From positions 1 to 64,000 of the forward strand of contig CASFQO010000002.1 of assembly GCA_949297145.1 (NCBI GenBank): a DNA stretch of 64,000 nt, given 5' to 3'. Under the pieces are notes generated by a model. That model saw nothing but the letters and a program-made list of their open reading frames with translations. It searched no databases and had not been told where the DNA came from. Both the position numbers and the translations under genes were made by a program. Below are positions 21,571 through 26,455 of the stretch, in pieces (position 1 is the stretch's first letter; the number at the start of each line of letters is the position of its first letter). This stretch comes from an uncultured Alphaproteobacteria bacterium. GTDB taxonomy: Bacteria; Pseudomonadota; Alphaproteobacteria; RF32; CAG-239.

Positions 21571-22176
21571 ATGAATTTCTTTGCAGAGTTTAATCTTCGC
21601 GAGCTCTTTAGTGCATTTGTTGTATTACTGGCGATTACGGATATTCCAGGTAATATTCCGATAGTCATCAGTTTACAAAATAAAGGAATACACATCAGTG
21701 CTCGCCGTGCCTTTTGGTATTCACTGGTTCTTTTGGTATTTTTCTTTTATGCCGGAGAAGCCTTTTTGAAGTTATTTGGATTGGATATATCATCGTTTGC
21801 GATAGCCGGTGCGTTGATTGTCTTTTTGTTTAGCTTAGAGATGATACTAGACATCAATTTGGTGAGTGAAGGAACGGATATTTCCAGCGATGCAACATTT
21901 GTGCCGGTTGTTTTCCCGTTGTTTGTAGGCGCCGGAGTGTTGACAGCACTGTTGGCAATTCGGTCACAATATGCCGATATCAATGTATTGATAGCCGTAC
22001 TATTAAACTGTATAGCGATATATGCCACAATAAGATTATCACGCTTTTTCAAAAAGCATTTAAGCGGCGCCGCCATATATGTGATGAAGAAGTTTTTCGG
22101 AATGGTCTTGCTGGCAATCTCGGTTAAATTATTTATAACAAACGTTGCCGTACTCGTCCAACAAATTAACGGTTAA
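21571..22176 (+). CDS. MarC-family (UPF0056) integral membrane protein
   Basis: This 201-residue protein has six predicted membrane helices, including the DIPGNIPI N-terminal segment and a FPLFVGAGVLTALLA segment, both typical of UPF0056/MarC. Transport substrate is unknown for the family, and the old multiple-antibiotic-resistance link is not supported. It follows nrdB by 27 bases with AGGTG-like sequence upstream, so it is probably cotranscribed with nrdAB. It ends before a strong bidirectional terminator. Confidence 0.9.
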   Translation: MNFFAEFNLRELFSAFVVLLAITDIPGNIPIVISLQNKGIHISARRAFWYSLVLLVFFFYAGEAFLKLFGLDISSFAIAGALIVFLFSLEMILDINLVSEGTDISSDATFVPVVFPLFVGAGVLTALLAIRSQYADINVLIAVLLNCIAIYATIRLSRFFKKHLSGAAIYVMKKFFGMVLLAISVKLFITNVAVLVQQING

Positions 22177-22195
22177 TAGCAAAACATAAAATAAA

Positions 22196-22244
22196 CAAAA
22201 AAAGAGCCCCGAAACAGAAAATCTGTTAGGGGCTCAGTTGTTTT
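22196..22244. terminator. Bidirectional terminator
   Basis: GAGCCCC (22204-22210) pairs with GGGGCTC (22229-22235), with an inner ACAGA/TCTGT stem. A-run before and T-rich sequence after allow use from both sides. It ends the nrdAB-marC unit and the convergent minus-strand gene. Confidence 0.85.
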
Positions 22245-22935: not shown

Positions 22936-22941
22936 TTGACA
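22936..22941 (+). promoter_or_regulatory. -35-like element of cysS leader
   Basis: A consensus TTGACA lies 46 bases before the leader-peptide ATG. The best -10 (TACTAT, 22964-22969) is 22 bases away, which is too far, so the exact promoter is unresolved. Confidence 0.35.
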
Positions 22942-22986
22942 AAGAAGATAAAACATTTCAAACTACTATCCGAAAAGTGAGGAAAA

Positions 22987-23034
22987 ATGTTGAAAGTAAA
23001 TGAAATCAAAGAGTGTTGTTGCGGCAAAGCGTAA
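22987..23034 (+). CDS. Cysteine leader peptide of cysS attenuator
   Basis: This 15-codon ORF is read MLKVNEIKECCCGKA. It has AGGAAAA as SD and three consecutive Cys codons (TGT TGT TGC, 23014-23022) just before the stop. It lies 91 bases upstream of cysteinyl-tRNA synthetase and is followed by mutually exclusive hairpins. Slow decoding when charged Cys-tRNA is scarce would stall the ribosome on those codons. Three adjacent Cys in a 15-residue ORF in this position is very unlikely by chance. Confidence 0.85.
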   Translation: MLKVNEIKECCCGKA

Positions 23035-23101
23035 GATTGCTGCCACGCTGGTTTCAGCTACAAAAAACAATGAGGCAGCCTGAGAAAGACTGTCTTTTTT
23101 T
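23021..23101 (+). promoter_or_regulatory. Transcription attenuator controlling cysS
   Basis: There are four pairing segments. Segment 1 is GCGGCAA (23021-23027) and pairs with segment 2, TTGCTGC (23037-23043), with one wobble. Segment 2, as GCTGCC (23039-23044), pairs perfectly with segment 3, GGCAGC (23074-23079). Segment 3, as AGGCAG (23073-23078), pairs with segment 4, CTGTCT (23090-23095), followed by a T-run to 23101: an intrinsic terminator. A ribosome stalled at the Cys codons covers segment 1. This frees 2 to pair with 3 and prevents the terminator, so cysS is read when Cys-tRNA is low. Confidence 0.82.
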
Positions 23102-23125
23102 ATTAAACACAAGAAGGAAAAGAAA

Positions 23126-24547
23126 ATGAGTGTATATTTATATAATACCAGGACCAGAAGCAAAGATGAGTTTAAACCGTTAAATCCGCCGTTGGTAACA
23201 ATGTATTGCTGTGGCCCGACCGTATATAACTATGCACACATCGGCAATTTGCGGACGTATATATTTGAAGATTTGTTGGTCAACACCTTAAAACTCGCCG
23301 GATATAAAGTAAAGCACGTTATGAACGTGACCGATGTCGGACACTTGACCAGTGACGGTGATGAGGGTGAAGATAAGATGAAAGTAGCTGCCGAACGCGA
23401 AAAAAAAAGCGTTCTGGAAATTGCTCGTATGTATGAAGATGCCTTTTTCCGTCATACCAAAGAATTGGGTCTGGCACGCCCGACAGTTGTATGCCGCGCA
23501 ACCGAGCATATTCAAGATATGATAGATTTTATCAAAGATTTGGAAAATAAGGGGTTTGCCTATATTTCTAACGGTAACGTATATTTTGATACGTCAAAGT
23601 TCCCGAAATACGGATGCTTATCCGGCCAAAGTCGTGAAGATTTGAAACATGGCGCACGTACCGAGCAGGATATGAATAAACGCAATCCGTCAGATTTCGT
23701 GTTGTGGTTTACGTCATCAAAATTTGAAAATCAGATATTGCAGTGGGATTCTCCATGGGGAAGAGGGTATCCGGGTTGGCATATAGAATGCTCAGCCATG
23801 TCCACAAAATATCTTGGGGAAAGAATAGATATTCACTGCGGCGGAATTGATCATATTCCGGTTCACCACGAAAATGAAATAGCGCAAAGTGAGGCACACT
23901 TAGGTCATGAGTGGGTAAATTTCTGGGTTCATATGGAATTTTTGAATAACAAATCCGGCAAGATGAGTAAGTCCAAAGGTGGCTTTTTAACCCTGGATAC
24001 GTTAAAAGAAAAAGGCTATGAACCAGTACATTACAAATATTTCTGCTTAACCTCGCATTATCGCAGCTCTGCCATCTTTTCGGATGAAGCGATGGATGCC
24101 GCAAAAAAGGCGTATGAAAATTTGGCAGATTATGTTGCAACCTTTAAGGCCGAAAATGAAAATAAAACTTTATCGGCTCAAGAGCAGGAAGAATTGGCTA
24201 AATTGACCGCAGAGTTTGACAGTTATTTGTTTGATGATTTGAAAACACCGGTTGCATTGTCATACATGTGGAATGTTGTTAAAGATAACAGCAAATCATC
24301 TGGTTTACGCTTGGTCTTTTTAATGCATGTGGATGGGGTTTTGCATTTATTCTTAAAAGACATTGCACCAAAGCAAAAAGAAACGGTAGAAGTAACACCG
24401 GAGATTAAAGCTTTGTTGGATCAAAGAGCCGAAGCAAGAGCAGCGAAAGATTGGGCAAAATCAGATGAGATTCGCGATAAACTGGCGGCACTGGGCGTTG
24501 GTGTTAAAGATTTGCCAAATAAAGAGATAGAATTGATAAAACTCTAA
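23126..24547 (+). CDS. cysS: Cysteinyl-tRNA synthetase
   Basis: This 473-residue class I synthetase charges tRNA-Cys. HIGH-type motif is YAHIGNLRTY near residues 36-45. KMSKSKGG lies near 273-280. Zinc ligands fit the family: Cys in YCCGPTVYN, Cys in HIECSAMS, and His/Glu in HHENEIAQSE. The C-terminal helical anticodon-binding domain ends in a DKLAALGVGVKDLP motif. It has an AAGGAAAAG SD. Expression is predicted to be set by the upstream Cys-codon attenuator. An SDR gene follows closely. Confidence 0.97.
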   Translation: MSVYLYNTRTRSKDEFKPLNPPLVTMYCCGPTVYNYAHIGNLRTYIFEDLLVNTLKLAGYKVKHVMNVTDVGHLTSDGDEGEDKMKVAAEREKKSVLEIARMYEDAFFRHTKELGLARPTVVCRATEHIQDMIDFIKDLENKGFAYISNGNVYFDTSKFPKYGCLSGQSREDLKHGARTEQDMNKRNPSDFVLWFTSSKFENQILQWDSPWGRGYPGWHIECSAMSTKYLGERIDIHCGGIDHIPVHHENEIAQSEAHLGHEWVNFWVHMEFLNNKSGKMSKSKGGFLTLDTLKEKGYEPVHYKYFCLTSHYRSSAIFSDEAMDAAKKAYENLADYVATFKAENENKTLSAQEQEELAKLTAEFDSYLFDDLKTPVALSYMWNVVKDNSKSSGLRLVFLMHVDGVLHLFLKDIAPKQKETVEVTPEIKALLDQRAEARAAKDWAKSDEIRDKLAALGVGVKDLPNKEIELIKL

Positions 24548-24561
24548 GAAAAGGAGGTAAA

Positions 24562-25239
24562 ATGAGAGCATTTATTTCCGGAGCAGGCGGAGGAATAGGC
24601 GGCGCTATCAAAGAATTATATTTGCATAGCGGATATGAAGTGGTGGCACCCCGAAGCTCTGAGCTGGATTTATCAGATATGTCAGCCATTCATAAATGGT
24701 TTGAAACACATCGTGCCGAGTTTGATGTCATCATCCATTGTGCGGGGTACAATAAACCGATGCCGGCACCGGAAATTCCTTTAGAAGAGTTTATGAAGAC
24801 GCAATATGTGAATTACATATCATTGCTGGAAATCGTTAAAGCAAATGATTCGTATTTCAAGGAGCATGGCGGTCACATTGTAGGGATAGGGTCTTTATAT
24901 GCCAGCATATCACGCGAAGGTAGGGCCGCATACACGTGTTCCAAACATGCATTGGTGGGTTTGATTAAAACGTTGGCTTTGGAGTATGGTCCGTATAATG
25001 TTTTATGCAATACGGTATCACCGGGGTTTGTAAATACCAAAATGTTCCAACAAAACAATAACGAAATGAAACGAGCCGAACTTGCGGCCAAGACGGCCAT
25101 CAATCGTTTGGCAGAGCCGGAAGATATCGCCAAGATGGTATATTTTTTAGGCAATCCGGCCAATACATTCATAAGCGGACAAGATATTATCGTAGACGGC
25201 GGTTTTATGGCCGGAAGCTACCAGACAATCAGGAGATAA
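24562..25239 (+). CDS. Short-chain dehydrogenase/reductase (SDR)
   Basis: This 225-residue Rossmann oxidoreductase has a glycine-rich nucleotide site GAGGGIGGAI near 7-16, NNAG-equivalent HCAGYN, catalytic Ser in GIGSLYAS, and the YxxxK pair in AYTCSKHAL. The C-terminal SGQDIIVDGG is typical of classical SDRs such as FabG-like enzymes. Substrate is unknown. A strong AGGAGG SD lies upstream. The next gene starts 3 bases after the stop, so cysS-SDR-xseB-ispA form one operon. Confidence 0.93.
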   Translation: MRAFISGAGGGIGGAIKELYLHSGYEVVAPRSSELDLSDMSAIHKWFETHRAEFDVIIHCAGYNKPMPAPEIPLEEFMKTQYVNYISLLEIVKANDSYFKEHGGHIVGIGSLYASISREGRAAYTCSKHALVGLIKTLALEYGPYNVLCNTVSPGFVNTKMFQQNNNEMKRAELAAKTAINRLAEPEDIAKMVYFLGNPANTFISGQDIIVDGGFMAGSYQTIRR

Positions 25240-25241
25240 AG

Positions 25242-25502
25242 ATGACAGAAGAAAATACCAATTCGGAAGATTTAAGCAAGCTGAGCTTTGAAGATGCTTT
25301 GGCGCAATTAGAAAATATTGTACGAGAATTAGAGAGCGGCAGAATAAAATTGGACGATGCCGTTAATGCTTACGAAAAAGCGATGGCTTTGAAGAAATTA
25401 TGCTCGGAAAAACTTGCCGCCGCCACACTAAAGGTAGAAAAAATCGAGCTGAACAAAGACGGTAGCTTAGGCACGGCTCCATTAGATAATGTAGAGGCCT
25501 AA
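25242..25502 (+). CDS. xseB: Exodeoxyribonuclease VII small subunit
   Basis: This 86-residue protein carries the family signature LSFEDALAQLENIVRELE followed by LDDAVNAYEKAMALKKLC. Several copies bind the large subunit XseA to make a single-strand exonuclease. The length is standard, with a charged coiled-coil fold. xseB before ispA is a widespread gene order. XseA is not in this window. Confidence 0.95.
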   Translation: MTEENTNSEDLSKLSFEDALAQLENIVRELESGRIKLDDAVNAYEKAMALKKLCSEKLAAATLKVEKIELNKDGSLGTAPLDNVEA

Positions 25503-25558
25503 GCCGCAAATAAGAGGAGCGAGAACGAAAATAAGGACGAGGACTAGGGTAGGGAAAT

Positions 25559-26455
25559 ATGATGACTGAAATTGAAGACGTATTGAAGAGTTATTCGGCA
25601 ACTTTTAACCAAGATATGGAAAAATATTTTCCTATAACCGATTCACCGGAGCAACACGCGGTTAAAGCCATGCGTTATAGCGTGATGAATGGTGGGAAAA
25701 GGCTGCGTCCGTTTTTATTGCATGAAACGGCAAAATTATTTGGAGTAGGGTATGAGAAGGCTCTTCCGATAGCGATTTCACTAGAAATGCTGCATACCTA
25801 TTCTCTGATACATGATGATTTACCGGCCATGGATAACGACGATATGCGCCGAGGAAAGCCGACTTGTCATAAAGCCTTTGATGAAGCAACGGCGATTCTG
25901 GCAGGAGACGGCTTATTGACATATGCTTTTGAGGTTTTGAACGGCGCCGATATAGAAGATAGCAAAAAAGTAGAGCTGACATTGCTATTATCAAGATCCG
26001 CCGGTGCGTTTAAGGGGATGATAGCCGGCCAAGTTCTGGATTTATATACGGATACTCATAAAGATTTTCCAAATCCGGAAAGCATTATTCGCCAAACCGA
26101 GGAATTAAAAACAGGATGCTTATTGCGATATCCATGCGAAGCCGGATGCATATTGGGCAATGCTAAAGCCGAAGAAAGAGCTCTGTTGGTTAAATATTCA
26201 CGAAATATCGGCATAGCTTTTCAAATCACTGATGACATATTGGATGTTGAGGGAGATGAACAATTAGTAGGCAAGACTCTCAAAAAGGACAAAGCGCAAA
26301 ATAAATTAAATTTTGTCAGCATATATGGTGTAGAAGGAGCAAAAAACATAGCTCAAAAGCTGATAGCTGAGGCCGAAGACATTTTGTCGGCATTTGGAAA
26401 CAACGGTCAAACACTAAAAAATTTGTCAAGATATATTTTAACCAGAAATCACTAA
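25559..26455 (+). CDS. ispA: Polyprenyl (farnesyl/geranylgeranyl) diphosphate synthase
   Basis: This 298-residue trans-prenyltransferase condenses isopentenyl diphosphate with allylic diphosphates. The first Asp-rich motif is DDLPAMDND at 86-94 with RRGKPT after it. The second is ITDDILD near residue 223. GGKRLRP (45-51) binds diphosphate. The residues before the first motif are bulky, as in farnesyl synthases. The start could be either of two adjacent ATGs. dxs, the usual next gene in this operon, is absent here. Confidence 0.93.
   Translation: MMTEIEDVLKSYSATFNQDMEKYFPITDSPEQHAVKAMRYSVMNGGKRLRPFLLHETAKLFGVGYEKALPIAISLEMLHTYSLIHDDLPAMDNDDMRRGKPTCHKAFDEATAILAGDGLLTYAFEVLNGADIEDSKKVELTLLLSRSAGAFKGMIAGQVLDLYTDTHKDFPNPESIIRQTEELKTGCLLRYPCEAGCILGNAKAEERALLVKYSRNIGIAFQITDDILDVEGDEQLVGKTLKKDKAQNKLNFVSIYGVEGAKNIAQKLIAEAEDILSAFGNNGQTLKNLSRYILTRNH

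Follow-up and report, generated by a model that had tools for sequence, protein, structure and literature searches.

A putative cysteine-codon attenuator ahead of a probably acquired cysS gene in one alphaproteobacterial genus

The cysteinyl-tRNA synthetase gene (cysS) of an uncultured alphaproteobacterium is preceded by a short leader that is very probably a ribosome-mediated transcription attenuator, which would sense charged tRNA-Cys and control cysS. Gene and leader lie in a stretch of 64,000 nucleotides, referred to here as the window. A first-pass annotation of this DNA had described a 15-codon open reading frame (ORF) with a Shine-Dalgarno (SD) site and three adjacent Cys codons, after which come 1:2, 2:3 and 3:4 pairings that exclude one another, the last with a T-run, 24 bases before cysS. 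Coordinates and folds agreed with this description (Table 1). Its reading of the region as an attenuator of the trp/his type with Cys as the sensor was supported by Cys codons, pairings and covariation in the genus.

Table 1. Features of the cysS leader and the predicted controlled gene in the window
Feature	Position	Strand	Basis or remark
-35 box-like TTGACA	22936..22941	+	In 17/17 leaders, -181 to -207 from cysS; unreported by consensus scanner
Candidate -10 region CAAACT	22959..22964	+	17 nt past -35 box; 17 leaders have an A-rich hexamer there
SD-like GAGG of leader ORF	22979..22982	+	Sequence
Leader peptide ORF MLKVNEIKECCCGKA	22987..23034	+	Translation; ATG 22987, TAA 23034, 15 sense codons
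Putative sensor, adjacent Cys codons TGT TGT TGC	23014..23022	+	2-5 Cys codons per locus, 18 loci
Segment 1, 5' arm of 1:2 hairpin	23018..23032	+	Fold of the region; covarying part 23028-23032
Segment 2	23037..23049	+	Core GCTGCC 23039-23044; 1:2 3' arm extends to 23049
Segment 3	23072..23079	+	Antiterminator 3' arm GGCAGC 23074-23079, also terminator 5' arm
Segment 4, terminator 3' arm	23090..23096	+	CTGTCTT, pairs with GAGGCAG 23072-23078
Terminator U-run	23095..23101	+	Sequence; poor in relative L013
cysS, cysteinyl-tRNA synthetase	23126..24547	+	TIGR00435, 459.5 bits vs cut-off 340

According to the proposed mechanism, a plentiful supply of Cys-tRNA would allow the ribosome to reach the leader stop codon and to mask segment 2, so that the 3:4 terminator forms and transcription ends near 23101. 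A shortage of Cys-tRNA would make the ribosome stall on the Cys run and cover segment 1; with segment 2 left free, the 2:3 pairing would form and cysS would be transcribed. In an untranslated leader the 1:2 hairpin would form and the terminator would prevail. The footprint of a ribosome extends about a dozen bases past its A site. The Cys run starts 23 to 33 nt before segment 2 and the stop codon lies 7 to 10 nt before the segment 2 core in 18 leaders, and with this footprint the spacing provides the geometry needed by the stalling model in all of them. We infer from this arrangement that the hairpin works as a terminator, that ribosomes stall on the Cys run and that Cys-tRNA is the signal.

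The leader was conserved in the genus. CysS was detected in 55 of 58 genomes, and among the 19 genomes of the genus that were examined, all 17 that have this cysS type together with its 5' region carry a Cys-run leader. A named MAG from yak rectum (L052), with a CysS from within the genus clade, provided the eighteenth locus, while L051 and L053 were counted as second copies of L012 and L019, respectively. The alignment of relatives proposed in the first-pass annotation thus found the Cys codons kept in 17/17 genomes of the genus and in L052. G016 (L039), also assigned to the genus, has a CysS of only 39% identity and no leader, which could be due to misplacement, contamination or a second replacement. 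No CysS match was obtained in G007, a genome of 72% completeness.

The leader ORFs comprise 14 to 16 codons, and AGG or GAGG precedes the ATG in 17 leaders, at a greater distance in L016. A short ORF with an SD site and a codon run for the regulated amino acid was present, at the level of sequence, at 18 of 18 loci. A hairpin with a U-run precedes cysS in the 17 leaders and in L052, with a poor T-run in L013. The peptides themselves have diverged (for example MKKFFVNCFCCCNS, MIYNKNICCCCCQTH, MLNIVINICCCKAS and MNSLFNICCCCFCS) and have little in common except their Cys codons, which occupy positions 8 to 13 over the 18 loci (codons 10 to 12 in the window) and in which TGT and TGC interchange freely. 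L003 has just two, with Ser codons after them. Although a Cys cluster could in general bind metal, a functional micropeptide with a metal or redox role that precedes cysS by chance is highly improbable, as little beyond the Cys run is conserved between subgroups, the Cys residues number between 2 and 5, and the distances of the RNA pairings are nearly constant.

Covariation was examined in alignments of 17 rows, A2 without L052 and A3 without L005, which is close to L004. In A3, 93.4% of the cells of stem 3:4 were paired, and changes on both sides occurred in four of eight pairs. The number of cells changed on both sides was 10 compared with 5.1 in shuffles, while the number of further pair types (8 vs 8.2; 451 of 500 shuffles) was not above the control. 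Stem 1:2, which extends across the stop codon and the bases past segment 2, was paired in 72.9% of the cells; four of its five pairs had changed on both sides, in 13 cells compared with 5.3 in shuffles. Stem 2:3 was paired in 99% of the cells and contained only one pair changed on both sides; 70 of 500 shuffles matched it on every measure, because its segments hardly vary. Segments 2 and 3 of L015 are both altered (GCTCTT with AAGAGC) and pair in a shifted register.

The pairing energy of own and foreign arms was also compared with 5000 permutations of 16 rows, L005 and L011 being left out. Foreign arms did as well 0 times for 3:4, 31 times for 1:2 and 322 times for 2:3. With one row per group (11 rows, 5000 permutations) the corresponding numbers were 0, 356 and 450; neither shuffles nor permutations fully allow for the relatedness of the rows. 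The compensatory changes anticipated in the first-pass annotation for segments 1 to 4 were therefore found in 3:4 and 1:2, while 2:3 showed little variation. As judged from the alignments, the three pairings are mutually exclusive and conserved, with 2:3 nearly invariant and without significant covariation.

These data also bear on translational control, in which the leader ribosome would affect how accessible the ribosome-binding site of cysS is, the hairpin being incidental. The leader and cysS are near each other, and some Cys leaders of Actinobacteria are described in the available text of PMC1262725 as lacking conserved terminator hairpins. Such control is nevertheless unlikely here, since the SD-like sequence of cysS (AAGGA, 23114-23118) is outside all segments, and since covariation is seen in stem 3:4, after which the leaders have a T-run, with L013 as the only poor one. 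That the leader is a T-box or a metabolite riboswitch and its short ORF incidental has a negligible probability. Although synthetase genes are often controlled by T-boxes in Bacillota, no Rfam 15 family, T-box included, gave a match with E ≤ 1 in the leader, and no part of the leader ORF is more constant than the Cys run. A sub-threshold greA match at 22113-22243 lies outside the leader.

Both strands of the window were searched for a short ORF with an SD-like site, a residue run and a downstream hairpin with a T-run. The sole match was the MLKVNEIKECCCGKA ORF together with its internal TTG start. With the start restricted to ATG and a three-residue run required, 60 dinucleotide-shuffled windows gave 14 matches in total for any residue and none with CCC. 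The stability of the whole-leader fold was unremarkable (z -0.68), and 44 of 200 shuffles were as stable. A simple consensus scanner reported neither a promoter nor a plus-strand terminator at the leader, and the candidate -10 region is a poor match to TATAAT. As the fold is ordinary and the scanner was silent, the case for an attenuator rests on comparison. Comparison of the sequences reveals the ORF, its Cys run, the spacing, the conserved alternative pairings and the hairpin with its U-run, and conservation at 18 loci is the main strength of the observation.

The covariance model of the element (R1) gave hits with E ≤ 1e-6 in 17 of the 19 genus genomes. Nothing comparable was detected in the 134 other genomes of the family (153 in total), where the best hit (8.4e-5) was a hairpin after another reading frame. 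Among 289 genomes of the class only the genome of the window itself gave a strong hit, and the next value among the other 288 was 0.004. Filtering was stricter in the family and class searches, which may overlook distant relatives. Outside the genus, 20 weak R1 loci (L148-L167) consist of hairpins followed by T-runs and have no three-Cys run in the listed short ORFs; by eye they look like generic terminators. Of 15 genomes from other genera of the family, 13 had a CysS match, and the leader was absent from all of their upstream regions of 260 to 320 nt. The only ORF with adjacent Cys codons in these regions, in L038, appears to be gltX in another frame.

Four loci of the sister genera, two from g2 and two from g8, show a TTGACA that resembles a promoter element and a short 5' region that lacks the leader, and R1 gave no strong hit in the genomes of g2 and g8 that were searched. 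The leader is thus not present in every relative. The first-pass annotation had named relatives without the Cys codons or the alternative pairings as evidence against its reading; the genus keeps the leader, while these four loci with a related CysS are without it. Among 80 named relatives, a short ORF with adjacent Cys codons was found within up to 400 nt before cysS in 11. The attenuator is present in two of them (L051 and L052), while for the other nine the judgement is based only on the peptide and its position. In Clostridium thailandense (L065) a short ORF, MSYCCCRYC..., lies 184 nt before cysS.

The cysS gene itself probably entered these genera by horizontal replacement. In a midpoint-rooted tree of 47 proteins, including 11 of the 18 genus CysS rows, the genus and the sister genera g2 and g8 formed one clade (100/98) within Spirochaetota, Bacillota and others. 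This clade was away from nine of the ten other alphaproteobacterial rows; the tenth, L021, is on a long branch. The clade is adjoined by L069, a MAG labelled as a proteobacterium. All leader-bearing CysS rows formed a single clade (100/99), whereas the branching of g2 versus g8 was weak (82/43). CysS of the sister genera (L018-L020) was 62 to 65% identical to that of the window. The tree points to a probable replacement of CysS in the genus, g2 and g8 (L018-L020, L059), unlike in other genera of the family.

The simplest history would be transfer of cysS first and a later origin of the attenuator on the stem of the genus; loss of the leader in g2 and g8 is a possible alternative history. A wider proposal, to which we give about even chances, is that Cys-codon attenuators of cysS had several independent origins in Alphaproteobacteria, and that the present one was built de novo in one genus on an acquired CysS of the Spirochaetota/Bacillota-like type. 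This would have occurred after the gene had entered the family, because at the sister-genus loci the related acquired gene follows a simple, short 5' region. As the synthetase clade, apparently a transferred one, has the attenuator on one branch and not on the sister branches, the birth of an attenuator could be traced here.

Three genes follow cysS closely on the same strand (24562-26455), namely an SDR-family gene, xseB and a farnesyl diphosphate synthase gene. Their short spacing and orientation suggest that they may also be under the control of the cysS attenuator. Genes of the cysK type were above the cut-off in 15 of the 19 genus genomes, and no nearby Cys leader was found in any of the eight genus genomes checked. 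In L339 and L340, short CC ORFs lie at least 276 bases upstream of cysK. As cysK is without a nearby Cys leader, control by the attenuator seems to be aimed at tRNA charging rather than at cysteine synthesis.

Cys-rich short ORFs were also found before cysS elsewhere in the class. The survey covered 106 cysS upstream regions from 184 genomes with a match, some of them shortened by contig ends (100 bases in L199). A short ORF with at least three Cys in six residues was present in 15 of the 106 regions, compared with a mean of 1.15 in 40 shuffles (sd 1.19, maximum 6), which do not model coding overlap with gltX; one region, L026, had joined the survey after its ORF had been seen. Five of the 15 (L172, L182, L186, L219 and L252) were discarded since by eye they seem to lie in the coding end of gltX in another frame, and ten remain. 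A looser CC criterion was matched by 16 of 105 class regions, so some of the following family matches are due to chance.

Four families were chosen because one member matched, and that member is included in the counts; L278, in which no motif was detected, and the incomplete L301 are not. A Cys-rich or CC short ORF lies before cysS in 12 of 24 genomes of f24 (for example MKSICIICCIISC), 4 of 4 of f122, 3 of 3 of f117 and 6 of 23 of f147, where four of them represent all four genomes of genus g178. In f11, MTCRCCRKNTTES(L/P)A occurs in two genomes (L026 and L206). The candidate loci precede the usual alphaproteobacterial cysS in f122 (L302-L305), f24 (L308, L309, L311-L314, L316, L318-L320 and L323), f117 (L330-L332), f147 (L281, L283, L288 and L299) and f11 (L026 and L206). 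R1 gave no match at the leaders of 22 loci of f24, f122, f117 and f147 (L306 left out) or at the two of f11, and no Rfam family reached its gathering score in nine other Cys-leader loci. The ORFs in these five families are candidates for further Cys attenuators and provide a lead. If they prove to be attenuators, cysS would be a favoured target of this type of control in Alphaproteobacteria.

In classical attenuators of the trp/his type in Proteobacteria, the leader peptide contains many residues of the amino acid under control, the 1:2, 2:3 and 3:4 pairings exclude one another, and an intrinsic terminator is present. The cysS leader has the same layout, including conserved exclusive pairings and a hairpin with a U-run before the putatively controlled gene; here Cys would be sensed, and a synthetase gene would be the target.

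The first-pass annotation had considered attenuation by Cys codons before a synthetase gene as rarely described in Alphaproteobacteria. This was only partly right, because a Cys-codon attenuator before cysS had already been proposed for Rhodobacterales; leader peptides with Cys runs are also described from Actinobacteria. According to the available text of Brewer et al. (2021; PMC8632094), uORFC-8-2 has 145 examples, exclusively before cysS of Rhodobacterales, with an AUG uORF, tandem Cys codons, stems and a terminal U-run, and ribosome-mediated attenuation was proposed. The present leader likewise precedes cysS in Alphaproteobacteria and shares the AUG uORF, the tandem Cys codons, the stems and the terminal U-run. 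It differs from uORFC-8-2 as described there in the type of CysS and in its Cys codons, which number 2 to 5 at positions 8 to 13, whereas those of uORFC-8-2 are usually two, at positions 14 and 15. Relatedness was tested indirectly: f24 may be Rhodobacteraceae and its leaders uORFC-8-2, and R1 had no match at 11 Cys-leader loci of this family. As for the host, close relatives that bear a name are labelled only as Alphaproteobacteria bacterium.

In Actinobacteria, leader peptides with Cys runs precede cys operons and cbs (PMC1262725). As in these leaders, the Cys codon run of the present short ORF is near the stop codon. The available text reports no conserved terminator hairpin for Mycobacterium, and the gene that follows differs, being cysS in the present case. 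No published report of this particular element was found in a search whose scope left out most subscription papers on proteobacterial attenuators.

The principle is already published, and the present RNA is another instance of it, for which sequence kinship to uORFC-8-2 is not claimed. New in comparison with the known systems are the foreign-looking type of cysS, the leader conserved in a genus, its absence at four sister-genus loci, and the Cys-rich ORFs in other families. A putative Cys-sensing attenuator is thereby documented, with covariation, in a lineage known here from genomes alone.
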